Shown piece by piece: positions 7,423 through 43,400 of a DNA stretch of 64,000 nucleotides (position 1 is its first letter; each line of letters starts with the position of its first letter). The stretch is taken from NCBI GenBank assembly GCA_028015205.1, contig CM051511.1, positions 1,612,001 through 1,676,000 of the forward strand, written 5' to 3'. A program made the position numbers and the translations under genes. Source of the stretch: Mytilisepta virgata (taxonomy: Eukaryota > Mollusca > Bivalvia > Mytilida > Mytilidae). A model generated the notes under the pieces. That model did no database searches and had not been told where the DNA came from. It worked only from the letters and a program-made list of their open reading frames with translations.

Positions 7423-10400
7423 GTAATGATAATTTGTCAATTGTTTATTGTTTATTTTGGGAATGAATAGAAATATGCATATATCAATGAGAAGCCAGAG
7501 TGAGTTATATTTTCCTAACCAATGTAGGTAAGGGAGATAATAAATTTGTCTCCCTTTTAGCCTCAGGACAAAAGGGAGAGAATTTAATTATCTCCCTTTC
7601 CTACATTGGTTAGGAAAAGATAATTCACTCTGGTTCCTCATTACCTACATGTGTAACTCCAATAAGTAATAGTTAATTAATGTAAATGATTACTTTGCTT
7701 AACCAGGAAAAAAATCAAACATTAGATGAAATTTGAATTTTTGCGTTCCATTTTTTGTAATAATAAACAATTGGCATTTATTTCCAAATTTACAGACCTA
7801 ATACCAGTATGTAGAATTAAGTGAATTTTGTAAAACAAAGATTTAGCAATTTCAATGAAGATACATTGTACATATCTACCGGAAATCTGAAATTAGAAAA
7901 AACTGTATATTTCATCAACATAAACAACCAAACCATCAGTGTTCCAACATTATACTTTTTGAAAAAAACAACATCATAATCTGTAATCTGTATTTCTCAT
8001 ACTGTCATGTCATTATTAATGAAAATTTATGTAATTGTAAAATGTAGCATACTATATATAATTTTTGTTGTAGTGAGTTTGGTAGCCAGCCACCACATTT
8101 TCCAACAGTGAATGACTTTGTAATTTTTTTGGAAAGATTAAACAAGAAGGGAGCCAGAATGAATCCATTATATACACAAAGAGACTTACGGGAGATGAGA
8201 GAGGATTTTGTGGCAAACTTTGTAGGACAGTATGGTGATCCGCTGGCAGCATTCATAGAACATCATGCAGTTCGGCTGGGAATCAAACAACCACGTAAGC
8301 TAGTCTGTAGTTAATTATAAAAAAAACACTCCCAACTTTATTGGCAAGTTAAGAAGTTTTTTAGTTTAAACTTATTAATTTATACTGGATTTAAAAACAA
8401 GATATACCAACTTATACTAATCTCTCTTCACTTGACGGGTGCGAGAGCGGCCCCTGTGGCAGTATATTAGCCTACTCCTTTTTCGACATCTACTGAGGAG
8501 TCTTTAACGTGCCAAGGGTGTTGCTCTCCGTTAACATGGGACAGCCCTTTTTCGTCCCCATCCGACGGGCTAGCATCTTTTACAGAAACCATCCTCACAA
8601 ATGGTGTCAATAGGGCATCGCAAATTTGATCCCTGAAATTTACATTGCAAACAGGAATCGAACCAGGGACCTTTGGCTTCATAGTCTGATGTGCTAACTA
8701 AAATACCACAGTGCCCCCTTTTGACTTACTAAATTATAAAAAGAATATGGATGTTGGTTTAATATGCATGAGTACGATTGTTTTCGAATCTTGTTTGCAC
8801 CAGAAAAAATCTTTCATTAGTACCGTAAAAGGCTGTGTATTATACGCATTTATGTATTATACGCACAGTGGATTTCTGTCTTAAAATCCTGGAAAAAACT
8901 TAGTTCGTATGGATAATACGCGGCAAGATCGGGAGCCAAGATTGAGTTGAGATCGTCATTACTGAAAGCGTATTTTCTTGATGAAGTGGTGTTTTATGTT
9001 TATCGAGTCTTTTAATCTCTTAATTAAACCCATTAATACATAAATATAATACAGAGACTTCCTATATTTGACAAAATTTAGGATTTTATTGTCGTTGGAG
9101 TTGTAAACGGAAGAACTAACTGAACGTATAAAACTTTAAACAAGTTCGGAAAAGTGACGATTTTCCGAAAATAACGACCAAGTTAGGTCTTGAATATCAA
9201 TTATTAATTTAATTTTAATTCTTTGAAAGGTAAGTACAAGTAATTATTACGTATAAGGCATTCCAAAATAAAAAAGGAAATTCTTGGATGTCCTTTTTAC
9301 CAGTATGATTTTTCAAAATCCCTTCAAAATGGCAAAAACAGCATTTAAGGTCACTTGTTTTGATTATATTGCTGTATTATTTAAGAAAAAGACCCTAAGA
9401 ATAAATTTATTCTTAAAATGAAAGAAAATACAAAATATAAACTATGATCTTTAAAAATTTATTGTAAAAATATCAATAAATTTACAACTCTGTGTAACAT
9501 CGACAAAACGACAGAATAAATTTATTCCCTGGTCACATAAAATAAAAAACCATTTGCTTCTAAAGAATAAATTTATTCCCTGTAGGATGAAAAGTTCAAC
9601 AGTCATTTGCTTTTATAGGGAATAAATTTATTCCCTGGCCCTACAATTTTATTTCTCAGAGAATACTTTATTATTAAATATTAATATATACATGTACTTC
9701 TGCTTTCCAGAGAATAAATTTATTCTCAGATCATCATTATAATATTCCACTTGTTTTCTCTAAAATTAAATTTATTCTTTATGCAATCATTATCTGCAGA
9801 GAATAAATTTATTCCAACATGCTAATTAATATACAATATGTTATGAAGAGAATAAATTTATTCTTAAAATGATGAACAGTTTAAACTTCATCCTGTGATG
9901 GGATTTTTTCTCAGAATAATAAACAGTTGGCTTACCAACTACCAGTGTACATTTATATTACTGCTAAAAGATTAGGTTCAACTACCTTTTCACTTTTTTC
10001 ATGACTATAAAAGAAACAGAAATCCTAAGAATCATGCACACAAAAGAGCTGACCAAAAAATATATACTAGTAAAAAAAAAAGTCAAATGCATGCATTTAA
10101 AAAATTCATATTAAAGCAAAATTTCTTTACAAAATTTCTTATAGCTTGATAGAACTACAATTTGTGTATACATATACAACTGTGGAAACGAGTGCTCCAG
10201 ATAAAACTCAGTTTATTATTTTTTTAAAGAAAAGAAAAACACATTGAAATTTAAAACAGAACATATGTTGTCAAATTAGTACCTGCATTTCTGGAGATGA
10301 ATCACAGAAATTAGGGGAAAGATACTTGCGTTTTAGGTAAATATGTACAAATCATTGAGAAATTCAATGACTCTTTGAATGAATACTTTATCATAACACA

Positions 10401-13400
10401 TCTAGCATCTCAGAGTATTCTAAATGTTGATACAAAGTACCAATGTTATGGTACACCGATAAAGTGCAAGTTTTTCTGTTAACATTGTGTGCATTTGTCA
10501 ATCAGCTAAACGAAAATTATCTGGAATTCTGGTAATACGATACAACACTTTCTACAATTTTTGTTTTGTTTTCAGCTGAAATAACAATTTTATTGTTTTT
10601 AATATTGCATTCAACCCTTGTTATAATATACTTTGGGTCAATAACTTGTTTGTCTTTTTTATTTAATGTGAAAGATTCTGCTTTTTCACTTAAAACAAAG
10701 TTTTTCTCTAGTTTTCCAACTGCCGCCTTTGTATATGTTAAGTTGTTATCTTCTAATATACCAAGGTACACTTTATCATTAACATATTCTACAACTGTTG
10801 CAGTCTGGAAAAAAATATGAATATAATATACATATGTTGTTAAATGAAATAAAGAATTGATAAATTTAAATTTTAAAATCAAGACTGTTATATACATGTA
10901 TGCATGAATTCTAGTGATCATATTAATATATTCATCTTCTTGAGATTGTTAAATTTGCAAACATTAAAATGAAAAGCTTGAACTAGATAATTAAGAGTTG
11001 GGAGATTCAGCTGGTGCCTATATTTCAATTTTCTACTGGCTACCCGATAACTAAGTTTGCTGATATTGTGTATATACATTCAGGACCCTATGAAAATTTC
11101 ACTTGAAGAACTTTTTACAAATCCATTTAGCCAAATGTAACCAAACGATCTCTTCAGATTCTATCAGTAACCTGGCCCAGAATGCCCAATTTGTTAAACT
11201 TTTATGTTAAATGACCTGCTACACAAATCAGGTGAATGTTAAGGTTTTTTTTAACATTTAGGTAACCAGGTAGTATACTTAAAATTCCTTGTGCATTAAT
11301 TATACCCATGTCTGAACAAAGGATGCGAAGTTTGTCCTGGTCCAATACTTTTTCCCATAAAAGATACAGTTGTTTGGACTTAGGCAATTTTTAACAAAGC
11401 TTTGTTCCATGTGTTGTCCGCAACTCATCCTACATTACTTGCATGATTCTCATGAAACTTTATGGAGTTTTAGATCACTATATGGAGATGTGCATATTGT
11501 CAGGATTTTCTGTTTGGACGAGTACTTTGAAAAATATGATTTGAACTATGCGTACGCTTCAAAACAGACATGTTGCTACTGGGGGTATTAGTCCCTTTCA
11601 GGACAGTTCTACATGTAGTTAATAACAATAGACAGGAAATTGCCATCTAACGTGGTGCAAATGGAAATTGAAAAGTAAGAAATCATAAGGAGCCAATAAA
11701 ACTATATGTTTATAATGCTAACCTTTCCATTTTCTATTTTACTTTCCTCATCCTGATTACATGAAACCTGTGTCTGACTGGTGCATCTTTTTTTCTGTAA
11801 TAAGAAATACCTTGTGTATGACAAACATTTGGTGCAACAAAATGTAGCCACAGAATCAGAAATTATCAGTTCTTAAAATTAAAGCTGTTTCTCCCTTTCT
11901 CATTTAAAAATCCTAAATAATGTACAGTAACTATTTTTTCATAAATATTTATCTTCTGAATTATTCATTCTGCATATTACTAATATTTAAAATGTCAATT
12001 TATAGTTATCAGTCTCCACATTCAGTTGTTACTGGTTTGAAAACTGTGATACAAAAAGTCATAAACAGTGCATAAGAAATATAAATTTTCAAAATTTCTT
12101 TGCAGTACTTAAGAATTTTATATTTTCAGTTGAGCATAATGAAGTTATTAAAATTTCAGTGTAAACAGAATAGTTTACAATTTTCTGCTAGAGACTTTTC
12201 AACAAGGGAAATATGCAGAGAAGTTGCACTGATCACAATTTTGTTACTTAATTTCAACTTTAAAATAAAATTAAATTTAACACCAACCTTGGCTGCTAAA
12301 ATATTTTCTTCCCCCTTTTCATCATCTGTATTTGCATTAGCTGCAACATTCTTTCGATTCTGAAAAATAATGTCCAATCATAATGAAATTTATGTTGAAT
12401 TATTTCATAGCTACATGTATACCCAATAAAACATGACTCTTATGTTTATAACTGAAACTGCATATAACTATATGTATATAATTAAATAACACTCATCATG
12501 CTTCTCTATAGCAAACCTTCCATGCAATACATTTCTTACTGACAGAGCCTGTATTGTATTTGCAATATCTATTTTATGAAATAATAAAAAATAACTATGG
12601 GTAAGATTATCTAATGAATTCAGAAATTTTGCTCTTAAATTATTTAAAGACTGGGAAATATACATCAAATCTTTAATTTCACATAATCATCATCAAAACT
12701 ATACTGGTTACCTTATTAGATTCCTTTAACTGCAACCTGGCACGGCTGGCTGCTTCCTCAGCCATGTTTACCTGCAGCTCAAGGTTCTTGATAGCTTCTT
12801 TTCGTTCATTAACTTCGTCCTGGGTAAAAAATAAGACATGGATAACAATGTGCTAATTTTTTATTGGTGAGAAGTATGAGGAATAAACCAACATCAGCCA
12901 AAGAACAGTGAAGCAACAAGATAGACAAGGAAATTAATATGATAACATAACGAATGACCAAACATACATGTATAGATGCTTACATTGTTTCCAGAGAATT
13001 ATCAGATTTATCTAATTGAGTTTAAGCCTTGGCTTTCTTACCTCACCTCCTGGATGGAAATATGACAGGTATTTCACCATATCCAATGTAATTATAGTAC
13101 AAATTATCTTGAAATTTGAATACTAATCAATAATCTCATATATTTGGTTATATTTGACTTGTGATTTACAAGGCTGGTAACAGATGCTGAACTTAAACAT
13201 GTTAAATAAATTATATTTACTTCTAAGATGTAATTATAAGTTATAATTAAAATTAATCTTTTGCAAAGCCAGATTCAAATGTATGCATTATGTGAAAATA
13301 AAAAAGTGAAATTACCTGCAATCTTTTGACTTTTTTCTCGTAGTCAACAATAACAGAGTTATCAGGTTCTTGTGAGTTCTTCAATTTCTAAAACCAGATA

Positions 13401-16400
13401 AATTCAAACAAGTCAAAATCAGTAGAAGCTCCCCAATCACATGTTTATTGAGAGAATGGAATTACTTAGCAGATATTTGGTATGATTTGAGGAACAAAGA
13501 AGTATAATGGGTAATCTCTATATTATTCATCTATGATGCAATTGTGGATGAAACTATTTTCAGAAGAATTACACCTTTGATGACAATGAATATGGTGAAA
13601 ACGTTTGGATGTAAACCCTTTTTAAATACACCGGAACATTTATAAAATGGAGGGAGTAGGGAGTATCCCAACTGACAGGGAGTAATAAAATATATACATG
13701 TATTTCATTGCAATATAACAAACAAGATCCAAATTTAAGATACCTGGAGAATACCCTCAGGGACTTACAATGTAACTAAATGAATTAGTCCTATAATGAC
13801 ATCAATTAATTAGGGGTGAAAATCTCAAAAATAACAATTCACAGTAACTATTACATGAACAAGACAGATATATGTACTTGTATAAATGGAATCAGTGACT
13901 GATTTAATGCAACTACCTGAATTTCTTGATGTAAATTGATGTTTTCAGTAACTTTCAGCTGCAATTTTTTCTGTATCGTTTTTACAGATTCAACATTTTT
14001 ATTAACTTCAGATTGTAAATCGTGAGCCTTTTCCTGTGAAGTTTTCTTCAATAGGTCTAACTCTCTCTTCAAATTCTGCAATTCATGTTGACTATCGTTA
14101 CTGAAATCAAATCAATATGTATATTAAAACTTGCACAAAAAAACAAGTGATTTGTTGACATTTAATTTATGGACTAAATAAAGAGCTCTCAACATCTTGT
14201 GTTCAATTGATCTTGTAACCCAGCCATTCATGGTATGGATCATATAATGTTTGAACAGCTAACCACCAAACAATACATTCAAAGTATGGTCTCAATGATT
14301 GCCATGTTCATCCAATGTCTTGAAATAATTTTAAAAAGAACCACTCCATCAAAGTTTGCTCTCAGTAAGTCAAAGTCCATAATTATTTCATAGTGCATTT
14401 TCATATTACATTAAGTCAAATTTTTAAAAATTGCACCAGCTCAAACTCTATAATCATTCTTTAAATCAACGTAAACTGGGAAATACCAAAATTATAGAAA
14501 ATTCTACCATTGAAAATTTTAAAAAAATCCCCCAAAATGTCTTTAAGTACTATAGTTATCTTTCACATAGCTCTAACATACTGAAATTGGGCCATTTTTA
14601 CAATCACCAAATTACAAACTTTATATTTCTGATTACAAAACTGGTTAAAATTTAGTTATTTGCTCCTTTTGCTTTATATTTTAACTAGGATACTTGAAAA
14701 AAGACTAACAGAAGTGGGGAAAATTAAAATGGAAAAAAATACACTATAAAATATGTGAACTATATTCATGGACAACGAGTTGATGCAGATTAATTGTGGT
14801 CTTGGGCCAGTTTAGTTTAAGAGAATATTTATGTATATTTGCTGCTTTTTGTCTTTTAGTAGGAGTTTCCATATTGGTCATACACAACTCGCTTGTAACA
14901 TCATCCTACATAATTTCTTTTCCTTAGAACAGAAAAAAATAAGTAATATTGTAAATTAGTACCTTCTAGGTTTTGCAGAGTTCTTTGATGTTTCTTCTTT
15001 TGACATGTCTTTCTTTTTTGTACATTGTGAAGAACTCTTAGCCTTCATTGGTCTAAAAATTCAATACAGCATATATAGACATTGTATTTAGCACAAGTGG
15101 AAAGAATAAAAAAAAAATAGAAGTTCAAGAAGTCATCAATCTCAATTTTTGAAAATTATTCTTAATCAGCATTTATCATGTTTATCAATGTTTTATTTTC
15201 TAAATGGAAAACTGTATATACTTCACTTGTATAACCATTTTCCTCTTAAAAACAATAACAGTTTTAAGTCACATTCCCTAATTATTAAGAACTAAATTAA
15301 TCAAATTTATGCTGTCTACGACTTTATTTTTCTTGGTAAAAAATGACACATCAAATTAACAAAAATAAGTATGGGGCTAATTATTTACATATTGTTTGAC
15401 ATATTTCCAAGTTTTGTATATTGAGTGTATTCTGTGAATTCCATGTACATGTATATGGCCTCATCCAAGGTCAGTTTTACACTACTTACCTTCTGGAGCA
15501 TGTTGCTTTAAATTTTGCAAATGAGATGTCTCTATTTGCCAAATTTAATAATAGCTGTTCTTTTTCATTTTTATCATGAATTCTGAATAAATTTGTCAGA
15601 TGAGTCTGCTTCATTTCAATCTTTGGTTGATTTAAAACATTTCCTTTTTGCCAAGCTTCAAACACCATTTCCAGCTTACACCAAACATCTTTTGATAAAG
15701 AGGCACAATGGAGGTGAGTCTGAAAGTGGTTCTTAACTTTGGATTTCTGGAGAGAAAAAAAGGCCAAAATAAAAAGTATATACAAAAACTAATCTGAGTC
15801 GCACATGAATGAAATGTGGGTCATAATGACCCAACTGTTGGAGAAATGAATTATAAAGTGTAACTGAAGTATCATTGATATCACAATATTGATTCTTAGG
15901 AATTGAATATGAAATTTCTGTACAGAATATATTGTATTTAACTGTTAAGAAAGTACTACATGTATTTAACTTTACCTCTTTATGCATTATCTCTGAGATT
16001 CTTGAACGCCACTCAGAAATTACAAACTTCCATGACTTCAGTGGATAATCAGACTTTACAGATTCTAGTAAGCCCCTGAACAATTTAACCTTCTCTTCAA
16101 ATGATGTCTGTTTCCCATGGTTGTGAATCTCATTGTGCAGATATCCCAGTTTTAGTGCCTGGATATCTGTCAGGCTGTAATATAAATCCATTGTAACACA
16201 AATATTTTTCTCTAGGTTTATCAGTGCCTGTTGAGTATGATACCCTCCAATCACCTCAACTCTGCCAGTTCTGGAATCTTTCAACTTGTCCACATCTTCA
16301 GTTTCATCAACAATACCAATTAATACTGTGTAAACAGATCCAATCTTTCCAATTTCAGTTTCTAGTTTTCTGACATGGTCTGCATCAAGGTCTCTTACTT

Positions 16401-19400
16401 TTCTCTGTTTTGCTGGTTCAACCAAATTAGAAATGTGAACCTGAACATTTTTTCCTGAAAAAATTTTTAGAACAAAAAAAAATGTTCTTCACTGTACTGC
16501 TCATGTAGTCAATATTCATATAAAATATAAATCTTTAGTTTTATTATTCAAATTTAAAGAAATTTTTCATAATTCCAAGGTACCTTATCACAGGTTGAAC
16601 ATAAAATACAAAATTTTTCAACCTGCACTTTTTGTATTATTTTTCATAAACAGATATCCAAATTACGACCTAGATTCATTATACTGTGAATTTTGATTAA
16701 AAGAGAAATGTTAATATAAAAAACTGCCTTTTCTGGATATTTAGACAATTTAACATATCGGTACCAAATGCTAGCTCTGTATTTCAAACAGAACTACTGG
16801 TACATCTTAATTACCAGGCAGATATGCTAGTTTCTGAATTTAACAAAACAGTTTAATTTTGACTTTCATATCAATTATAACGACTACAACGGTCTTAATC
16901 ATATGAAAACAAAAATTAATTTAACATGGGCAAATTCTTTAATCAATTTAATTTGAAAAATTTGCCGCTCCGATTATTTAACTAATGTAAATTTTAAGAA
17001 CAATTTTACTGCTGCTTCATTTTGCAAAACTGCTGAAAATTTGATCTAAATTCTTCATTTTTCAAGAAATTAAAAATAAAAATTGTCTGCCTGCTGATAA
17101 AATTTTGTAAAAATTGAGATTTTTGCACATTTTTTGCAATGTTTTAGTTGAAAAAAATGTGCGCTATTGTAATTTTGATATGTGCCCCAAAAAAACTAGT
17201 CTATGAGAAAAATAAACTGCTGCTCCTTATGCCCCTCCCCAGAAATTATGATTTTATTGTTTTTTTTTAGTGTTATGTTACTTTTTCAACAGCTTAACAT
17301 ATATAAATTATAACACTGTAACAATAAGCTAAATATCATCATTGTGAAAGCGGTTTGAAAAAATACGTCGAGGCGTACTGGAGTTAGTACATGACATGTG
17401 AATTTTTTTTTTTGGGTCTTCACAAGTCCCATAACTCTGCAATGACAAAAGTGGAAATCATCAAAAAGTATACAGACCCTCAGGCACCATTTGTAATAAT
17501 GTGTTAAAGTTTGAAGAAAATCTGTCTAGGCGTACTCGAGTTAGTGCCTGACATGTGAAAAATTGCTTTTTTGGAACAATCTAAGTCCCATAACACCAGA
17601 ATAAAAAATATTTAAAATAGTCAAAATCAAAAGGGAGCTTTCTTCTGTAAATCCTTATGTTGTGTTAAAATTTCATGAGAATTGTTTGAAGCAACTTTGA
17701 GTTATGGTACAAAGTGTTGACGGACGGACATTGGTCTATGACAAGCATATAAAAATTAAATTAGAATTTCACTTGCTCGCACCTATTTTTGCGGTCCAAA
17801 AAATTCAAAGAACTAAAAATCAATTTGGTTTCGCTTAATATAATATAAACTTACCTGCTAGATGAGCACGAATAGAACTGAAGTCTGAAGAAAGGGGAAG
17901 ATATGATCTTGAATTGTTATCCAAAATAGCATCTGAACTTTCTTTATCTTTTTCTTCATTATCAGCATTATCCTCATGACTTGTATTAAATGCATCATCC
18001 ATTGAAGAATCAGCAAAAGACTGACTAGAAGAGACTGACTGATTTCTTTGTTCATTGTGTTGTTCAGCTTGTTGTCCATCTTCATTTTGTGTTGTTTTTC
18101 CATCATCTTTATTTGTTTGTCCTTTAGCCTTCTCTGACAATACATTAGTTTCTACTATCTAAACAAGAGTCAAAAGGATTGCTAAAACAAGTACCATGTT
18201 GCAAATCTCTTGGGGAATTTGTATTTGTTCAAACAGTAAAGGTAGAAAGTGAGGTTAATTATAGATTAAAATAAGTTATAATATATATAACAACACTACA
18301 AAAGTTATTCCAATGAATTCAAAAAGTTGCAATATTTCGTTTTATAAATGGGACATAAATCAGCCTTTGAAAGAGTTAAAGTCATGATATATACCCAAAT
18401 TTAACTTGATTATAATGGTAATAAACATTGACTTGGATACAAGTTGCAAAGCATTTGGCAAAGCAAATGGATATGGGTAACACATAATAACCTAGTCATC
18501 TATGGCAGAGGCATAAAACATTTCATCATTTTGAAAAAAAAAGTTTAGGTTAAAGGAGTGCTGATCTCAATTTTTTTTTCTAGATATGTTAATATTTATT
18601 AAATAAAGAGGACAGTGACAAGCAAAGTATTTCTTCAAGTTTGTAGTATGATAACACAGAATATGAATTGTTACAGATAATAATGTGTCTATAATTAAAT
18701 CCATGAAAGCTAACCTTGTTTTCTTTCAGCCATCTTAAAAATTCTGTTCTTGATGCTCGACAGACAGGAGACAACTCCTTGCCACTACATTTGAAGTCCT
18801 TCAAGTGTAAATCAAATTTTTCCCCAGTCTCCAGAAAAACCTATAAAAGAGTGTTTATACCATAAACCTGGTTGCACCAAATATGCACAAAATGCATGGA
18901 AAATATTTAAAACAATGTTTTTATAATGTACAAACCTAGAGGATGAGATCAAAAGTTCAATGTAGGATAAAAAACTTAATTCAAATAGTTTGGGGGATGG
19001 GGGGTAAAAATCACTGCAAGTTTTGTTATTCGACATCGATTTTCGGATTGAAGTGATGTCCAAGTCAATATACAGAACAAACATACATTGTTGAGGAAAA
19101 AAGGACCCATGATACAAAAAGTATTCTCTCAAAGTATATGCCCATATAGGTCAATCAATTTTTCCCAAATTAAGTTAAGAGGGGGGTGGGGGGGGGGGGG
19201 GGGGGGGGGTCAGTGAAAAATCTATGTGATATAAGTTTTTTTATCCTACATTGAACTTTTGATCTTGTCCCCTATGACATGTAAGAGATTAAAATAAATT
19301 AAAGAACCTTTGTGTGCACGCTCACATACCCCACGTCTTCATATTGTCACTGGAGAAACAAAATCTCACTTCACAAGTAAAATGAACGCAATCAAATGCT

Positions 19401-22400
19401 TACCTTCACATATTTATCCTAATTTGAATGGCAGCATGTTGGGAAATTTAAATTCCAAGCGAGAGGAGTCAACAGTAATAGTATAGTGAGGCAAATAAGT
19501 TCAAAGGGGCGTAACTCCTGGAAAAAAAATTGAATCGTAATATCCTGTCGATATGCACATCTACGTAGTATGTCCGTATTATCTAAAAAGGTTTCGTGAA
19601 ATCCTGTTGCGTGGGGTATAAATATACAGAACTTTTGGTACATGCTGCTACACAGTTCACAAGCAGTCTTATACAGCAAATCTTATACAGAACCCTGATT
19701 TAGGAATCATATGAAATTTGCAGTTTGATTTGCCATGCAGTTTCATCAATCAATATATTCTGGCAAAGATTCCCGTGTCTGGCTTAAATGTAAGAATGTA
19801 AGTGTTGATTACACAAAAAGATACTAAATGTATTATTCAACTGTAATAAAGTCAGTTCCTGATACATTTAATATCCTTGAGAGTTTGAAACTAATTGACA
19901 GTGTGGTACTGGTGTACATCTTTTAAAGCAAGTAACTTTTGGAGATTGTTTCAAATATTTTTTTACATGAAAGTAAAAATTGTCCAGGGCATAGCCAGAA
20001 TACCCATACATCCTAATTTAATTTGAATAACTTTCCTGGAAAGCACTAAAACATCATATTCTTACAAAACTGATTACCTGATTGTTTTAAAATAAATTGT
20101 CATGCTTTATGACGTATATTTGAAATTAAATTTTCAGATATTTATGCATTGCTATAAATTTACATTAACAGTACAATAGTAGGTGGTGCAGGATTAATTA
20201 TACATGGGTTCCGAAATGACTATTTTTCGGTCCCGAATTGACTATTGGTAGTGGTGCCGATTTGACATCAATGCCAACATGTTGCGTTTAGCGAAAACCT
20301 TTATTGTTGATTGGTTGGAAAATTAGCTTTTTTATGCAGAGGAAGTTCCAAAAACAATATTTGTATGAAAAGTTTAATGATATATTAGTATTTCATAAGT
20401 GAATTTTTATTTATTACGCCAGAAAAACTCCAAAATAAACAGCAAACAGCAAGAAATTTCACCAGGAAGTATACAAAACAAACTTGTTTCAGTTCGGTTT
20501 CCGGAATGGACATAAAAAAATCCGGAAATCTTTCAGTCTTACAGAAAATCGGATTTTAAAACAAGGAGGTAAATCTGTGAATCAGTTGTAAATCTATTTT
20601 TTCCCAAAATTCAATAACAAACTGTTTTAATTTTTTTGTGTTTCTTTTTTAATCAAATTTTATCAGTGGGTTGAACAAAAATCATTAGATACAAATAGTA
20701 GCATATAGTAATTGTATTTGACTCAAGTAAAAGGTTAGAAAACTTTGAACGCAATATAAAATATGTTTATGAAATCCTACATTTAGGAGACCCAAACTCT
20801 TGATCAAATTTTAAAATCTTATGATCAGCTTTGGGCAGTCTGTCGCATGTAAAATTCTTATTTTGTATATTTTAAAAAATTCAAGTTATGTATTTATGCA
20901 TGGCGTATTCTTTTGTTCTGTCTCGCGTCCATATTCAACTTGCAGTTAGTAGATAAGGCAAAATATTCCTGTAATCAAAAGAAAACTTTTTTTCTTGATA
21001 AATGGTCAATTTCCATTTCAAAAATGACGTTTAACCTCCAGATATTGTACTAACCAAACGTATCCAATCCCTTAAAAGGCCATTTGCTTCTAATTAAAAA
21101 TTAACATATGTTTAAACTAAACCAGCTTAAATATATATTGATAACAAGAAAAATAAATGGAAATGGAGAGCTGTCAAAAGAGGCGTAAGACGACTGAAAT
21201 GTATAAAATACACCAGTCGAATAAAACCAAATATAAAATCGTAAAAAACAACAACAAACTAAATAGTAAAAAATACTCAACGTTTCGACCAATATGGTCT
21301 TGATCACGAGTGTGAAAATAAAAAATAAAAATAAATAGGTGTTAACTCTTTTTTTTAAAATATATATACATCTTATAACTTAATCCGTTACACCTTTTGA
21401 AAATCCACATATATATATATTATTTTGGAATGTGAAATTCTCATTAATGAGACCGAAGGGTCGATCTAGTTCTCAAATTCAGTTTTGTCCCATTTTTTAA
21501 TGCTAAATCCTGACTGAAGATTTTGGACGCCATTACGTTTGGAAAATGTCCGAACAATAAGTTCAGGAAAAGGGTCCTAATCCTTCATATATAGTTTTTT
21601 TTAAATATACGTAAAATATTCTAATATCCATAAGTCAAGTTTAAAAAAGTAAAGCTGATTCTCTAATAAAAAAAATCACATCGAAATGTAAAATACCGTA
21701 TCATTAACTCATTACTTAACCTAGTATTTAATAGTACTTAATATACATACCTCTATATGCCTCAATTTTAAGGAGTTCTGAATACGACTAATTTGGCTCT
21801 CATATGGATGATCTTTCACGATTAACTTTCCGTTTTTTACCGACCAAGTACACATGATTGGAAACGTTATTTTTTTTATTATTTTAAAAAACTAGTGTCC
21901 ATATAATAATGATTTGCTAACTGAATATTGCGATTAAGTCCTACAGGTCGCGTGGATTGATTGTCGTATCAATTAAGCATAATGAAACCGTGTCAAAATA
22001 AAGCATTATAATTGGTTAACGTTCGTTACGCCCACCGCGTCTATCATTTGGTCGTGTGTGCCGCGGAATGCTGTGAAAAGCGGTGTGTAACGGTTTTTAT
22101 GCAGGGTCATTAAAAAGAACACCCCCCACATACAGTTAACAAATGTGATTAAAAATTTCAGGGTTATCAGCAGTCTGTATGTGTGTCGGGAAACACCCCC
22201 ACTATTACATTGGATCATCCTAACATATAGAATTTTGTGTAAAATTTAAAATCTGATATCTTTTCAAGGATTCAATTTTAGGACATGATATTGGCATCAC
22301 TACGTGAAATTTGCATACTCGAAATAAAAAAAGGTTCGACAAAAAACAATGTGTACACTAAAGAAAATAAAACCACATTTCAGATTTATCAGAAATTTGC

Positions 22401-31400: not shown

Positions 31401-34400
31401 ACCCCTGTGTGTTCCATTTTTGAAAAAAAATCTTAAACCTTATTGCACATCTGCATATAAGGCGCATGAAAATACTGTATAGAAATAAAATGCATAAACG
31501 AAAAATAAAAGACGAGTTTCATTACAATTTAAGAAGTTCTTCCCCTGTGAGCCACAAATTAAGAAAATAAAAATTCTAAAAACGTATTGCATCTTCAGAA
31601 AGTGTGCAGCCAATCTATATGGAAATTCAATTCATAAACCCAAAAGTGAAAGACGTCACAATAGAGTTGACGGATATACGGAGACAATCGCAATATCCCT
31701 CAACTTTCCTGGAAGGTGCGGGTATAATAATTTATTTCGATTGAATATACCATTTAAATACACGCAGTGTAAAGGTAGGGACTCGTCGTTATATAAAAAA
31801 GATATGAAAGATTTCATTTAATATTTAAATATAGCACGTTGAAAATACAAACAAGTTTGCCACTTTTCGATTATTAAAAAAAAGCTTTGTTAAAACATTA
31901 AGAATCTTGAACCATGTTTTTTTCTGTGATGCAAGGGGGCTGGTTTTACGACGAAACCCATTAATACGCAACAGCGTCGCGAACGTGTGTTAAACAGGAT
32001 GGGGCCGATCGTTTGATCTGACATATGATTTAATTATTACCAATGAAATGCAGTAACAGAATGTTTCCGTCCTGTCATTGTATTTCAAATTAACCGTGGA
32101 TAATCCGGCGTATTTTCTGACAGTGCATGAAAAATTCAGATCCTGATAAATAGGAGAGAATGACATCCAGTTTACAGTAAGATTTTACGACATGTTTCTA
32201 CAAGTGCTGCCTGTGTTCCTTCTCGTATCAAAGTTATTTCAATTTTCCATTGCTCCAAATCCAGAAAAATACCACATGGTAAGTTTTTATACCTTTATAT
32301 TGTTTTAATTTTGTATTAGATTCATTAGCATAGTGTAAATTTAAGATCTATATAATCACGCCCACTTATCTTTCTTATTCATAACAATTGATTGTTGTTA
32401 AATGTTTGAGAAATTTCAAAATTTGGAGAATATATGATCGATGAAATAATTCCGTTTGATGCGTGTATATTGCCCCACTTAGATACATTCAACAATTGTT
32501 GAAAATTTTGTTACTAACTGATATATTGTCTATGAAAGGGATTGAAAATTACTTCAGAGCGGTTTAGCAGCTATATACTCGTATGATATTTACAAGAATT
32601 AAATAAACAAAGAAATATTACAGCGAACGAAATTCTTGAATTCTTGAGAGAGAAAAACGGAATAATGAGAATATTTTAGAACATTATAAATTCAATTGCT
32701 TAATACAGATAAGCAATTGTGATAGACACTTGTACCAAGGATTTATGAATAAAATTCGTAAGGTTTCCACGGAACCCAGGGTCTCGCCTGCTTTCGCTCT
32801 TGTGTATGTTTTCAGTGTTATAGTGGAATTTGTCTCCACACGTTATTTATTGATCGTGGACAAGCTTCTATCCAAGTTTGGTAAAAATCCAGAATGGTTT
32901 AAGAAAGTAATTAATGTTTTAAAAACTTTAACCACAAAGTGAATGTAAATGTTGACGACGATGGAATGTAGTCGCAGGCTCGACAAAAAATGAAATCTTG
33001 ATTACGTATGTAGGGACAACGCGTAGGTGGTCATATAAATTATTTGATAGGGAAATTTAAATTATCATGTAATAGTTTCATTTTACTAGTTTTTACTTAG
33101 CCTCTGACCAATGTTATAATTACAATGTTAAATGTTCATCATGTGTTCATTGTGCGGTTTTTATTTTCGACAGTTTTGTTTTTAAAAACACTTTTAAAAA
33201 CACAATTTAAAAAAGGTTCAATTTCAGCTGGATTTAGAAGGGGTAGATCACTTTCAAGAGAAACAGAAGATGCAATATTTTGGTTACAGGAATATTCCCA
33301 ATACAGAGGTGATCATTTACCTGTAAAAGGAATTATTGAATTACCATATAAAACACGGAAATATGACATCTACAAGAATTATGTGGAAGAACTAACAGAG
33401 AATTTAAAGGCATCAGTATCTTCATCAAATTTCTACCATATTTGGAAAAACCACTTTCCTAATTTGAAAATTAAACAAACCAACTCTTTTTCTCGTTGTT
33501 CCACCTGCACAACGCTTACAACAAGACTGGAGAAAACCAGAAACCCAGATGAAAGAGCAGAATTAAAAAAGAAAATAAGTGCTCATAACAATAGGCAAAT
33601 GTAGGTATTTTATTTGGTTTTTATATGAAAATAGATAATTCTGTTTGTGAATGTTTTAATGGAGTTGTGCTTGCTGTCTGCATAAGAGATGTATTGAGAA
33701 TGAAAATGGAAGTGATGTATTTGCCAGAAACCTACTTAAGAGATAATTAAAAGAGAATATTGTTTTTAAGACTAAATAATCTTCATTTTTCTTACCTCTT
33801 CATTTTCATTTCCTTGGTGAAAAATATGTATTATATGCTCAAGATGTTATCATTAAATCAATGAATTTTTATAGTCTCTAGCAAATATGCTGTCAACATA
33901 TTTTTCCTGCTATGATTTTTGAGATGAAAGGGATTAAAAAAGTAATGTTGCTGAATACATGTATTGTAAACTGTGTAATATATATTATAATATCCAACAC
34001 TGTTTTGGTCAAGCATGTTGGTCACACTTGTGTGTACTTCAACTGTTCACCTGTTGTCAGATATGTTGCGGTCATGTCATGCTGTGCTCAGGGAAGCGCT
34101 TTAATATTTATTATTGTTATGATATTTGCATAATGAATTTTATTTTAAGTACTAGTATATAGGTATTTTTATTGGATATGCACCAATATAGCTCTCTATC
34201 ATCTGACTTTAACACATGATTTTGATTTTAAGGGCAGAGAGGAACTACTATAAAACTAAAAGACAAAGAGCTGAACAGAACAAAAGGCAGTATATGAGTC
34301 TGATCATTGATGGAATGGACCAGTGTAAGTACAAATGTATAAAAATGAAAATTTGGGATAAGTTTTTAGTACCATACCAATATATCTTAAGAATTCATAT

Positions 34401-37400
34401 GTATGTTTAAATTGTAATACCCCAAAGGTCTTTCATTCTAACATTTGCATCATTTGGAAAACTAGAATTCATTTCTAAAATAGCGTACATCAGGGACTTT
34501 AGCAGAGAATGGAAAGATATCCAGCAACAAGTATTTACTATTTACATTATGTTTAAAACACTCAACAAGCACAATACAAATATTCCATGATACCAATTCA
34601 CAAGATGTCTACATTTTTTTTATTTATAAAACAGTTCAGATTCAAAAGCAAAAATGATGGCCAAAACCATCAATAACAGAGGTATGCATGAAAAAATACT
34701 CCTTGGTGTTCATGAAGTATAACACAATTAACAGCTGTTCTTCTTTGTCAACTAGTTAAATGGTCAGGCCACTAGTTCTCTGTCATAGGTAGTGTTTGTT
34801 CTGTCATGAACAAAGTATAATTGTGAAACTTTAAGGCTGTGGTTTGAAAAATTATTGAAATTTTAAACCTCTTTAAACTTAATATTCATGTTAAAATTAT
34901 TATTTATATTTTTTATTTTTAGCAAAAACAAACCTTCCACATTTCACTGGCAGACGTTCAAAGGTTTGTGTATTAAATATTATAACGATATGTTTAACTA
35001 CGAAAGCTGATATAAGGTATCTAACCATTTTGAAGAGATAAAATGTTTTTTCTAGCCAGAAGATTAAATACTGAAATATACATTCACTAGAAAGATTGAA
35101 AATCAGACGATATATTTTTTACTGAGGGCTTTTGTATTAAAATGAAAATATCAAAATACTCCCAGAATTAACAAACTTTTTTTTAACCTGATAGACGCAT
35201 GCTAAACAGGACCGAGGACCCATGTTCTATAATAAAAACTAGCTTCCATTCCTACCCTAAATTTATGACAAAGTACATGCACCTCAGTTAAAGCATTTTT
35301 GTGTATTTAGGTTTCTCTGGAAAAATAGCACCTAAACATTGAAAACATTCTTAAAATTAAATACACAAGGGTATTTGATTTTGGAAAGGCATAAATTGAC
35401 ATAAGGGTAGCAATGGTTTACTTTATACAGTCTTTAAAGGTCATATTTATGTATTTCCTTGAAGGACTGATATGATGGCTTTTTTTGTTTTGCAAATACG
35501 CCCTTTCCGGGATTCGAAATTGTATACTATATTTTTGCAAGTTCCTAAATTTTATCACGTGACTCTCATAAAATTTACGGCATAACATTTATTACGCTTT
35601 GAAGTGTAGATCAAATCAATTGTTTTGAATTTAATTATTTAAGATTCTGCTTTAAATCAAAATTTTTTCATTAGATTATTTTATTTAAAAAAAATCATTT
35701 TCAAGAACAATTATACCGTTATAATAATGATTTTTTAATCTGAAGGATACGTTTTTCAACGTCTATGAATAGCCGATTGAAACGATGAAAATAAACAATT
35801 TCTGAAAACTTTCACGTTATAAAAAATACATGTAATGTCCCTACTTTCTGCAATTGTCTTTCATTCCTATTAATTTTTTAAAGAAAAATACAAACTCTAA
35901 ACTAGTTTAAACACACATTTAAAGACATTTAAAAAGGATCTCTATCAAAATCAATGACCGGAAATATAGAATTGCCCTTAAAAAAGTAAGAGAACATCAT
36001 AAACTAAATACCGGGATCCCGAGAAATCGACATCCCAAAAAACGACATATTGTTTTATAATAAATTTTTTTGCAGGCCATTGATGCTGCAAACTTGTTGC
36101 AGACTCATGTTCAGGGAATTATTAACCATGGGTTGAATAGGTTTTCTACTTACATCGATATAAATGAGTATAAGCACGACTCGAATTTGGTGATGAACAC
36201 AGTACTGAAGGAGATATATTATACAAGTGTCCACATGGTAAGATTAAAACTTACAAAAAAGCAAAAAATAAAAGTATATAGCGACAACCTGCATTCAAAA
36301 ATATTTCAGTTTAATTAAAAAAGAGGATTGGATACCAGTAATTGAGAATATTTTTATCTTCATGAAAAAGTTACATGTTGCTTACTACGTTGACAGCTTC
36401 TAATATATTTAATAGCAATAATCTGATTTAAGGTATATTTTATATTTTAAAGAGTAAAGATTTTTTACTTCTTATATGGAGACTACAGCTGCTTGTTTTT
36501 TTCAGAATTCTTTTTTGCCAGATGTCCTCTATATACAGGCAGACAACTGTTTCCGAGAAAATAAGAATAGATTCATGCTTGCATTTTGTGAACTCTTAGT
36601 TAGAAATGATATCTTCAAAGAGGTAAGTTGAAAATGATTTAATTAATGAAAATACAGTAATAGCAAATCAGTATATGACCGAACCACCAAGCTAGATGAC
36701 CGCCACAAACAAAATTAGTTTAATGTAGAAGAATATGGGAATATTCTTCAGATATTTTAGTATAAAACCATTTAGTCATCATCTTGACCAAACTTATCAG
36801 ATGGGGCTCTTCTAAAACTCTATTTACAGTACTTTAAGACATGGCATGATGCTATTTTTACTATATGTATCAGATTAAAGAGAGATGCATCAAACAAGTT
36901 TTAGGTCACTATAGCCTTAATTTCAATTAACTGGTTAAATTAAGTAAGTACTATAAGAGACAGGATATTTATTGATGGTTCTACTAGTAATTGAAATGAA
37001 CTGGTGCCAAACCAATTAAGTAAAACAGACTCAAGTGAACCTCTTGTTTTAGAAGTGACAACAAGGAATTTGTTTATTATAGCCTTGAGGGTCAAGTGAA
37101 CTGTTGCTGTCACTTGGCTTCTGTGATCAATCTCAGCTGAAACAAACTTTTAACATCATTGTGGATACAACAGAGCATGCATTTTTTTTTAATCTCAAAC
37201 CAAAATGGCCACCAAATAAAGCTGATGATAGTTTAACATAGGGGAAAATCAACTAGAACTACCTATGTCAGCAATGGTGATAGGTAGTCCATTTTCAAAT
37301 TATATTTAATATTTTCAAACCAAGTGGCCATCATAAGCATGTAGTATTAAAATTTTTTTCAAACATATTAGCATATATTGTATAATTTTGGTAATAAATT

Positions 37401-40400
37401 TTTATTATAGGTCCACTTGAGTTTCTTATATGTTGGACATACGCATGAAGATATTGATGCCGGGTTCAGCAGGATATCGGAAAAATTGCGCAAGAAAGAT
37501 GCAGAAACAATGTGTCAACTATTAGATATGCTTCCAAATGCAAGAGAAACTGGGGGATTGTATAATATAAAAGAATGGTTGAAAGATTACATATTTCCAA
37601 TAACAGGACATACAAACCCTTTACACTATAAATTTTCTAGAAATGCAAATGAAAATATTTTGGTAGAATATAAAGGAAATAACCACAGACCATGGAAACA
37701 ACTGAAACGGCCACTATTAAAAAGAGTACCTCCAGGAATACCCAAAATTTTATCGTCCAAAAATTTTCACAAGTTTAATTTTGATGCATTGGGAAAAAAT
37801 ATAGAACGTTCAAGGTATTTATTTTCAGATATTGTTAAAGAAACGCAATATAGATGGTGGAAAAGATATATAGAGATGCTTAAGGACACTGCAGGAAACA
37901 AAAACAAAGCTGATTTGTATGGAAAGAAGAATGCGAGATGGTTATTGCCACTTCTGCCAAAGTCTTATAAAAGGAAGCAAAAAGGTGTTCAACTTCCAAA
38001 GGAAATTGAGGAATGGTAGACAAGGAAATAGATGATCCTGAAGCAAGTATTTTTTGAAAACCTTTATTGAAATTCAATGAACATTACTAAACTTATACAT
38101 TCATATATGTAATTTTGATATCGGTCCTTCATATGAAACATTGAGAAAATAAGACAGGTCCATATGAGCCTTATGTTTACTACAAATACATTAAAACTTT
38201 CTCTTCTGAAATAATTGAGCTAGTTGGTCCTTTCAAAATTGTTACTGAAAGTAGGAAAATTGGAAAATATATTTTAAGATATTTAAAACAATTGATACCA
38301 AACTTGTGTGGTACCCCTTTTAAATATAAATCTGACTGAGATGCTCAAACCTTTGACCAATATGTCAAATCTTGCTGAAAACAAAAAGTCAGCAAAGGAA
38401 TATTCAACTTAAAAGGTGTTTCTCCAATTAACAATTGTCCTTATGTAATTAGTAGTCTAGCTGTAGGAAATAGCTATTTATCAAAAACTGTGTTTTTAAG
38501 TTTTTAAATACATGTATAAGATGGAGAGGAATTTATATTTTGACCAACTGGTGATAACATTATATTACCGAAAGAACAAACATTGAAACTATACCAACTT
38601 CAAAAAGGGAAAAAACACCAGTGTGAGAGAGTTTTTTTAATGAAATTGTTTCATTCCTATATATGAATCTTTAAATTCAGACAAGATTAAATTTGGCTTT
38701 AGAAATAAAGTTTCTTAAGATTTAAAATGTTTATATTGACAGGTACAGATGCCAGATTTATAGAGAAAAAAGGGAAAACAAACGACGTCAAAAGTGAAAA
38801 AAGGTGGGAAAACTGTTAAAAAAGTGCAAATGAATAGAAGAGCAGCAGCTAACCACAAAGGAAAAAAGAATCAAAATAGCAGGAACCAGAATAAAATACA
38901 AACCGGAAAAAAGAAAGTCATGGGATCAGTAAGAAGATGCAATAAAAGATGCAATAGAGATGGTAATTTCATAATTTTTAAAATTTATTTAAGATCAGAC
39001 TTGTGAGATGTGGAATTTGGATATATATAAGTATTAAGATGTAATCTTACATGAATTCTGATGGACACTTTCATTGGTTGTTAATTGTTGAGCAAGTTGT
39101 AGTATATTGTATAGTGTACTTTGTGTATGTGATGTCACCAACGTCTTTAATATCCCCACAATTTCAAAGAAAGTTGGGGGATATAGTGATTGTCTCTGTA
39201 CGTCCGTCACACTCCTACTTCACTTTTGGGTTTAGGAATTTAATTTCTATATAGGATGGTTGCTTATCACCTTTAGATTAGATGCGCAACAAAGTTTTAG
39301 AATTTTGATTTTTTAAACAATAGGCCCTCAGAGGTCAAACTTTGAAAATTGATTTCAAGCTTCTGACCTAAGCTCGTCTTTCATTTTTCAATCAATGCAT
39401 TTTATTCTATACAGTATTGTCCTGCACAATATGCAGATGCACATTATAATATGCATTAGCTTAAATAAACTGTTCTAACACAGTCTTTTTTTAATTGATA
39501 TTACTCATTTTTATCTTTTTTGTACAGTGGATTTTTGCTACAAAAATATTTTCATATTTTTTAGGTAGCAAACGCAGAAAGAGAACAATATTCCATTCAT
39601 TTGTGTACTGTGATGGCTCAACATTAAAGAAGACTCAAGTGCACGTTTGGGAATTGATGATGTTGTTGGAACTTTTAATATTTTTTAATTTTTTGCAAAT
39701 TATTTCAACAAGAAATCTGCTGGAACTGATATTCTTTTATAATTTATGTATTAGACACCACATTTTAGATGAGTGTAAATGTTGTATATCAAGTTACAGT
39801 GAAGTGGAAAAAATTCTTGACTTTGATGCAAAAATATTTAGCAAATTAGTTTGTAAAAGGATCTGTCTGGATTCTGATATTCAGAGAGGGTCAGTCATTT
39901 ATTCGAAAGTACAGGGATATAGCGATTGTCTCCGTCTGTCCATCCGTCCGTCTGTCACACTTTCTTGCATACTACCTGTAGATGGGCAGTAAGGTTTTAT
40001 AATTTTGATTTTCTAAACAAGGGGCCCACAGGGGTCAAACTTTGAAAATTTTGAATTCAAGCTTGAGACCTAAAGTCTTCTTTCATTTTTCAATTTATGC
40101 ATTTAATTTCTATACTGTATTGTCATGCACCATATGCAGATGGGAAATAAGGTTTGAGAATTTCGATTTTCTAAAATTGGGGCCCACAGGGGTTGAATTT
40201 TGAAAAACTATCAATTTAAACTTGTCTTTTGTTTTTCAATTTTTTTCTTAAATTTTTTATAAAAAAATTGGAGCCCACAGGGGTCGAAATTTATTCTTAA
40301 AGAAACAGCAATATATATTCAAAACAAGTTACCTTGAATGCTGTTTTTTGCCAATTTGAAGCGATTTTGCAAATCATACTGGTAAAAGGGACATCCAAGA

Positions 40401-43400
40401 ATCCAAGAATTTCCAAATGTTTATTATTCTGAGAAAAAATCTTCACAGGGTGAAGTTAATAAACTGTTCATCATTTTAAGAATAAATTTATTCTCTTCAA
40501 AACATATTGTATATTAATTAGCATGTTGGAATAAATTTATTCTCTGCAGATAATGATTGCATAAAGAATAAATTTAATTTTAGAGAAAACAAGTGGTACA
40601 TTATAATGATGATCTGAGAATAAATTTATTCTCTGGAAAGCAGAAGTACATGTATATATTAATATTTAATAATAAAGTATTCTCTGAGAAATAAAATTGT
40701 AGGGCCAGGGAATAAATTTATTCCCTATAAAAGCAAATGACTGTTGAACTTTTCATCCTACAGGGAATAAATTTATTCTCTAGAAGCAAATGAATATTAA
40801 ATTGTTCATTGCATGGGAATAAATTTATTCTTTAGAAGCAAATGGTTTTTTATTGTATGTGACCAGGGAATAAATTTATTCTGTCGTTTTGTCGATGTTA
40901 CACAGAGTTGTAAACTTATTGATATTTTTACAATAAATTTTTAAAGATCATAGTTTATATTTTGCATTTTCTTTCATTTTAAGAATAAATTTATTCTTAG
41001 GGTCTTTTTCTTAAATAATACAGCAATATAATCAGAACAAGTGACCTTAAATGCTGTTTTTGCCATTTTGAAGGGATTTTGAAAAATCATACTGGTAAAA
41101 AGGACATCCAAGAATTTCCTTTTTTATTTTGGAATGCCTTGTATTTTAGTTACCCAAGCTAATTCTCTTGTAATTATAATTAATTAGAAAACCAATAAAG
41201 GTTAACATACCCAAGCTTCTACTTCTTTGATCAATTGTATATATGGGTTTACCCCAGCCAATACTCAAAATAGGATCAAAGGAATACATAGTAGGTTGAA
41301 CTCAGTTATGTAAACATTTATAAGAAAATAGTATATAGATTAGTATTATTATTGTTGATTGTTTAATTAGTGCTTATATAGTATGAACTTTGTTAATCAA
41401 TGACAATAAATCACATTCAATAAAAATGGAAATTGTTTTGATTGTAATTATTGTGACATGTACACAAGCCCCAGGTAATCTAAGGTCAATTTCAATTAGT
41501 CAAAGAGGGTGGTACTCATATTGGTTTATCCCCTGTAATTTCAATTCGTCTGAGAGGGGTGACAAACAAAATGGCGGTCGGCAAAGTTTATCGGTATTTA
41601 CTTTCAGCGTTTCTAATTTTATTGGGATAATATTCATTGGCAGTAAGTAAAAAACAACTTCATTACATATAAACATGAAGATTTTATTCAAAACATAAAA
41701 CAAGAACATGCATCAATAATGAAAAGATACAAAAATCGATGTCAAATAGATACGAACTTCGTGATACCGGCGCTCTGTTTCCATCCTGAAAAAAGTCTTA
41801 AATATGTTATAGTGATCTATAATACGCACCCCCATCTACAAATTATGAATTAAAGGCATAAATGTGCGTATAATACACACCGTTTTACGGTAAAAATCAC
41901 TTTTGCATTTGTTAAGCCTTATACTTCCGGTAAAGTGTTGAGCTTAGGGTTTAGATAAAGCTATATAATTTATGAAATTACAAGAAGTATAGGTTGGAAA
42001 AGTATCTCCTCTTCCTGTTCGTGAATACTGGTTATTAGTTACATGTGTAGGTACACAGGAAAAATAGCAACGTGCGTTTTACGGGCATTAGACTAAACGC
42101 CCGTAAAACGCATGGTAAACGCATGTACTTCAGGCGTTTCCTAAACATGTGTAAAACGCATGTGAATAATCATCCGTAAAACGTGTAGAAATAAACGGGT
42201 GAAATTCATATCATGTGTTTTACACCCGTTCACCAAACGTATGAAAATCATTTTACAAAAACGTCTGTATAATGTTTCAATAGGGATACTCCTGATTTAT
42301 TTTGGCACATATAACTTGTCTCCCATTTACAGAATATGCCTAATGTAAAATACAACTCCTTAAAGTACAAACTGTTACAGGAGTAACTGATTATTATCTG
42401 TTTGACGTCTTACATTTATCATAATTTATATGAACACATAACATAAGATTATTTTATCATTCCTCCTTGTCCTTGATTTGTGATCTTTGTCTTTGACTGA
42501 AGAAATTGTACATTCAACTCTCCAACCTACAGGCAACTGCAGAATACATTTAAACAGCAATGCACTGTAAGTAAAACAATTGAAACAAGCATTGCTTTAT
42601 AAATGGATTATGTTAACTCTTATTGAGACCCTTATCTTGTGGATAAACTTCGACAGTGATTCACGTTGAACCATTTGTTTTGATGGGAGACGTTTGCGCT
42701 AGGGAAAAGAACGCAGGCGGAACATAATTACATATATCCCTTTGGTATATTTCTTGACTTTACCTTACACACGAAAATAATTTTCACATTCTCGGTTCAC
42801 TGTCTTTAAGTGGTACCAATTATTCAGTCAAATTATATAATTTTCTTAAAACTTTATTAAAATTAATGCTTTTTGAAGCGGTTAGTAAGGAAAGTATTTA
42901 ACTTTTTTAAAACTGTAATGCCGTAGAGAATGGAATGAATTGTTACCAACACTAGACGACAACAAAACTGTTATCGCGAGATTGAAATTTAGGCGATATA
43001 TCCAATGACTAAAATCGGAAACCAGTCTTACATCAGTCAAACGGGAGTTCTTTCCCTTGGTATCGGAAGTTACCTTAATAACCACAGGATAGCAATTCAA
43101 AAAAATTACCAGTAATTAAAAGGGTGTTACTGTTGAAATATACATTTAAAAAAAAAACTTTTATAATGCCCTTGAACGATTTTTTGTTGCGATCCGGATT
43201 TAAACTTCGCTTCTCCGTATCAGTATCCTTTTTCCGGGCGCCTTTTTTTTTATTCGTCACTTCCGGTCATTTCGTGATTGGTGATTTCATGATTTAAAAA
43301 CAATCTAGCAAATGACTTGCAGAATATCTGAATATTGTCTATCGTTTCATTTTGGAAGACGAAAAATTGTATATATATACTCGTTATAACAATGTATGAG

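Follow-up and report, generated by a model that had tools for sequence, protein, structure and literature searches.

A giant transposon family of the bivalve Mytilisepta virgata with a candidate DUF7869 transposase and a ParB-like gene

We have identified a family of giant cut-and-paste transposons in the bivalve Mytilisepta virgata. One copy, of 31,886 bp (9255..41140), lies within the window analysed here, a stretch of 64,000 nucleotides (assembly GCA_028015205.1, contig CM051511.1, positions 1,612,001 to 1,676,000 of the forward strand), and is internally deleted relative to a 42.4-kb copy on C8. It ends in long terminal inverted repeats (TIRs) filled with short palindromes, is flanked by a 4-bp target-site duplication (TSD), and carries the two outward-facing multi-exon genes reported in a preliminary description of this DNA, one encoding a ParB-like protein on the minus strand and the other a DUF7869 protein on the plus strand. 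We consider it highly probable that the element is a cut-and-paste DNA transposon with the DUF7869 protein as its transposase.

The borders of the element were defined by comparison with other loci of the window's own assembly (1.03 Gb, 109 contigs). The preliminary description had joined all features between 8823 and 41890 into one 33-kb unit with TA on both sides. Inverted termini with TA outside them do exist at these positions, though they are imperfect, and the long inner inverted repeats that it noted are confirmed, the two longest blocks being 97-98% complementary. The single unit was not upheld. When 8823-9300 was used as the genome query (41 matches listed, 40 of 258 candidates scored), all matches except the window's own ended at or before query base 432, which corresponds to window position 9254. 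Twenty copies of this ~1.18-kb repeat were fetched, and 18 of them span the junction uninterrupted and have GTAT once; in L023 and L026, the remaining two, alignment is lost near window position 9208, short of the junction. In copy L010, the left flank of the giant element aligns to position 630 and the right flank from position 627, an overlap of four bases. Because GTAT is single in uninterrupted repeat copies and the flanks overlap by four bases, the inserted element is 9255-41140, and GTAT (9251..9254 and 41141..41144) is its TSD. The giant element jumped into a much smaller repeat, a nested insertion, and left the TA-flanked host repeat in two halves outside it (8823..9254 and 41145..41890). 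This repeat is the source of the TA and of the outer termini, which fail as ends of the giant element because they belong to the short dispersed repeat that it hit. Termini found only as independent short miniature inverted-repeat transposable elements had been named beforehand as grounds for abandoning the single unit, and the outer termini are indeed the ends of a short dispersed repeat. The TA duplication expected of a Tc1/mariner/pogo-like element is absent from the borders of the giant element, where the real duplication is 4 bp. A 33-kb element with a TA duplication and outer TIRs is therefore rejected by the uninterrupted host-repeat copies and scarcely credible, despite the existence of its inverted termini and TA; the inner ends, moreover, mark out six copies, 21-42 kb in length and flanked by 4-bp TSDs.

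These copies were found with 9248-9930 as the query for inner ends (best 40 of 213 candidates scored). Among the matches listed, 12 full-length end matches form six inverted pairs, 21-42 kb apart, so that the genome search for distant inverted ends called for earlier succeeds with the inner ends, which form at least six pairs. In addition to the window copy (31.9 kb, TSD GTAT), the pairs delimit copies at C8:26.890-26.933 Mb (42.4 kb, TATT/TATA, 3 of 4 bases), C4:16.988-17.029 Mb (41.2 kb, AAAT), C14:51.846-51.867 Mb (21.2 kb, GTAT), C13:1.265-1.296 Mb (30.7 kb, CTAT) and C8:35.012-35.034 Mb (22.6 kb, ATAT); the 4-bp duplication is perfect in five of the six. Over ~2.2 kb, left ends are 99.2-99.7% and right ends 99.0-99.7% identical to one another, the C8:35.01 copy being read in reverse. 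TIRs, a TSD of fixed length with an empty site, and near-identical dispersed copies are the hallmarks of a cut-and-paste DNA transposon, and the family has apparently been active recently. The question of whether other copies hold the same two genes receives a largely positive answer. ParB-like matches occur in all six copies (90-99% identity per exon, truncated in the C8:35.01 copy). DUF7869 matches occur in five (long exons 96-99%, short exons 89-96% identity), and the own-genome protein search gave no DUF7869 match in the C13 copy.

The element begins with AAGGCATTCCAAAATAAAAAAGGAAATTC. Its left TIR (9255..9930, plus strand) contains seven copies of the palindrome GAATAAATTTATTC, one ~52-bp unit fewer than most other ends, and its right TIR (40413..41140, minus strand) contains eight. 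All 15 exact occurrences of GAATAAATTTATTC in the window lie within these two repeats; one more with a single mismatch is found at 25566, giving a total of 16 with at most one mismatch, far more than the 0.15 expected by chance. The palindrome occupies the same eight positions in 9 of the 12 ends of the six copies. The deviating ends are the window's left end, which lacks one palindrome, one C4:17.0 end shifted by one base, and one C8:35.01 end with seven exact palindromes. Comparison of one end of the 42.4-kb copy with the other showed no differences in 128 palindrome positions and 10 in 595 spacer positions, which is not significant (P = 0.22). Eighteen further fetched ends (L041-L058) show ~85% identity to the first family over the first ~180 bp and hold 6-15 palindromes each, allowing at most two mismatches. 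Their partner ends are absent within the ~3.2-kb fetched loci, with up to four substitutions allowed in the tip.

The DUF7869 gene (33228..38019, plus strand) retains six 3' exons in the window copy (33228-33600, 34233-34324, 34923-34963, 36076-36237, 36506-36622 and 37411-38019), which encode 463 aa to the stop; its 5' exons have been deleted. The protein matches PF25273 in Pfam (E 4.5e-67). Its predicted structure resembles that of DDE integrases, and this predicted RNase H fold, together with the conservation of its acidic residues, suggests that it is most likely a transposase. The catalytic domains of Mos1/Metnase transposases and retroviral integrases share 5-14% identity with it in the rows listed, and these domains were not among the matches listed in a profile search of PDB sequences. 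DUF7869 was not mentioned in the papers covered by our literature search. A family listed as of 'unknown function' gains a likely role as a DDE transposase. The nearest DUF7869 locus outside the six copies is at C7:18.34 Mb, where identity per exon is 77-91% and stops occur. Within them, one exon of the C8:26.9 copy matched as two pieces, and the last-exon match of the C4:17.0 copy contains an additional stop. The best protein-database match is LOC134228510 of Saccostrea cucullata.

The ParB-like gene (10517..18840, minus strand) comprises 11 exons (18715-18840, 17855-18158, 15976-16454, 15490-15746, 14963-15052, 13917-14100, 13316-13387, 12712-12819, 12288-12359, 11723-11794 and 10517-10804) and is open for 683 aa to the stop; the first exon was not found. 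One of its three protein-database matches is LOC134228509, also of Saccostrea cucullata. This locus and LOC134228510 have consecutive numbers and both lie on a contig of 41,297 bp, which we take to be one and the same. The motif GGNHTRQA, which we take to resemble the ParB/Srx box, does not vary among the C14 copy and the three database proteins; in the window copy it reads GGYHTQQA. The PHROGs ParB family phrog_723 was listed for all four cores searched at a limit of 10, with a match that covers the motif in the member shown. The motif and the palindrome arrays recall bacterial ParB/parS, from which the system differs in that this profile match is weak (best E 0.0043). No ParB family was matched in Pfam, NCBIfam or PDB profile searches, and an AlphaFold model built from three sequences was too poor for use. 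A search for further ParB-like proteins with the P0121 core returned only P0121 itself and P0122, and tblastn of the P0122 core gave no match in phages. Kinship of this protein to ParB is thus weakly suggested, on sequence grounds. In the genome (best 65 of 161 candidates scored), identity to the ParB-like protein outside the six copies is at most 37% among the matches listed. The C-terminal ~90 residues match alone at 14 genome places, at 34-37% identity, each within an open frame of 101 aa.

A second family combines the same pair of genes with different ends. Both of its proteins are 28-62% identical to those of the first family, and its elements have a different palindrome and 4-bp duplications. 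The gene pair was found at C1:17.36-17.38, C7:30.33-30.35, C13:24.38-24.39 and C6:24.04-24.06 Mb, with the two matches 5-14 kb apart, and the outward arrangement is repeated at all four loci, the ParB-like match on C6 being partial. No DUF7869 match lies near three other ParB-like matches (C1:20.39, C3:2.49 and C21:2.06 Mb). Ends of the second and third families were sought in the genome with the best 40 of 105 candidates scored. Two second-family elements were bounded, at C1:17352583-17385288 (32.7 kb, TAGT twice) and C7:30320530-30354947 (34.4 kb, CTAT twice), and both have the 4-bp duplication. A third end pair lies at C13:24371106-24396716, and single ends occur at C6:24.03, C13:28.05 and C1:20.37 Mb among the matches listed. 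The inverted repeats measure ~550 bp and contain the palindrome GGGAAATTTCCC five times on the left and six times on the right (at most one mismatch), mostly 59-60 bp apart. The tips start with AAGCTCTTC, and a stretch TAAAAA..GGAAATTCT is common to both families. On C1, the ParB-like motif reads GGNHTRVA, and the putative transposase retains IIDGMDQ, LQADN and VGHTHEDID. Ends of a third set, which are ~75% alike, were matched up from their coordinates and orientation only, giving at least six inverted pairs separated by 21-33 kb; within six of these pairs there was neither a DUF7869 match nor a first-family ParB-like match.

These pairs, together with the absence of the transposase 5' exons from the window copy and of the gene from the C13 copy, could be read to mean that the giant element is non-autonomous, with both genes as passengers and an unrelated transposase acting in trans. 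We regard this as unlikely, since the two genes are again paired at all four loci of the second family, whose ends differ, and a DDE-type fold with conserved acidic residues is predicted for the DUF7869 protein.

The first-family copies were compared over 13 kb of the 42.4-kb C8 copy, part of the C13 copy, and the ends of the C4:17.0 copy. Two blocks of the window, 9513-20273 and 33204-40225, are collinear with the C14 copy (94.9-99.5% per block); in that copy they are separated by 2.3 kb with coding sequence for the transposase 5' exons that is missing in the window. The 42.4-kb copy has, in order, the equivalent of window 29445-33196, ~6.9 kb without window counterpart, and the part from window 33204 on, which is preceded by the 5' sequence seen in the C14 copy. 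The window thus has a deletion junction at 33196..33204, where ~6.9 kb of the 42.4-kb copy is gone, transposase 5' exon sequence included. In the C13 copy, the fetched sequence corresponds to window 20814-33196 with gaps (98.4-98.7%) and lacks 33204-38145, and the C8:35.01 copy lacks window 16195-32102. The element middle (20273..33196) is accordingly represented by 20814-33196, gapped, in the C13 copy, by parts in both C8 copies, and not at all in the C14 copy. From these block patterns, the copies look like versions of a single ~42-kb element with internal deletions that overlap, and the window copy is probably non-autonomous. The copies shed internal DNA yet keep their ends, and deleted copies such as the window's, with its lost transposase 5' exons and altered ParB motif, are therefore probably mobilised in trans.

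Two open frames were observed in the interior. Within the element middle, in the stretch also found in the C13 copy, a 358-aa frame at window 26001-27077 resembles on visual inspection the 3' portion of a non-LTR reverse transcriptase; Pfam gave no match for it. An acidic open frame of 141 aa (L065 8027-8452), which may be another exon or gene, lies in sequence that the 42.4-kb copy has and the window lacks. The size of the element could recall virus-derived or fused elements of the Teratorn or Polinton kind. No viral family appeared among the Pfam matches of seven window open reading frames, the remaining frames having been inspected by eye and not exhaustively, and we consider such an origin highly improbable.

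In the mechanism that we propose, the DUF7869 DDE transposase would act on the ~0.55-0.73-kb TIRs, whose tips start with AAG and which bear family-specific palindrome arrays, and insertion would yield the 4-bp duplication. The ParB-like protein, whose gene has stayed next to that of the transposase in the outward arrangement, would be a DNA-binding accessory factor; it may recognise the arrays in a parS-like manner and may bridge or mark the ends, which in these elements lie 20-42 kb apart. Whether it binds the palindromes is evenly balanced in our judgement. In a version that we place just below even, the transposase itself would bind the arrays and the ParB-like protein would serve otherwise, for instance by marking the element, as has been proposed for the algal ParB-methyltransferase proteins. 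Large DNA transposons commonly have subterminal repeats to which their transposase binds, and no methyltransferase domain was reported in a Pfam scan of the 683-aa protein; nothing direct speaks against this version, although ParB proteins bind palindromes of ~16 bp and the palindrome differs from family to family. More speculatively, and with a probability well short of even, this may be a giant-transposon lineage, probably animal, in which a DUF7869 transposase is paired with a ParB-like partner. This partner would load onto the parS-like arrays of both ends, spread or clamp, and join ends up to 42 kb apart, as a captured bacterial-type DNA-bridging system put to use in transposition. The pairing of DNA ends tens of kilobases apart becomes testable here.

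Sola1 and Sola2 transposons make a 4-bp duplication. Excerpts of PMC12477816 describe Sola1-1_Ec32 of Ectocarpus, a DNA transposon of 21.5 kb that encodes a transposase and, from the other strand, a ParB-like/methyltransferase protein proposed to bind and mark its own transposon. The likeness to our element, a giant transposon with a transposase and an opposite-strand ParB-like gene, is one of description only, and Sola1-1_Ec32 differs in belonging to a brown alga and in its extra DNA methyltransferase domain. The ParB-like partner, known with a methyltransferase in algal transposons, thus also occurs without one beside a likely DUF7869 transposase. Bivalves do hold Sola DDE/D transposons, and their curated Sola1 elements are far shorter, averaging 5,445 bp; a ParB-like partner is not mentioned for Sola in the excerpts of PMC10294476. 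KDZ giant transposons (~30 kb, the fungal ones with accessory genes; excerpts of PMC12477816) resemble our element in size and accessory genes, as compared by description. Our literature search turned up no giant transposon from bivalves that has a ParB-like protein. Cut-and-paste transposons of this bivalve genome can now be said to reach 42 kb, and apparently moved recently.

Outside the element, an open frame at window 55501-55947 has an ERCC4-domain match below threshold (E 0.16), and a piece of it gave no match against PDB. Location of the unit in an intron of a conserved gene, as given in the preliminary description, was not confirmed by this match. Short TAAAACGCATG-type repeats occupy window 42093-42162, immediately to the right of the host repeat.

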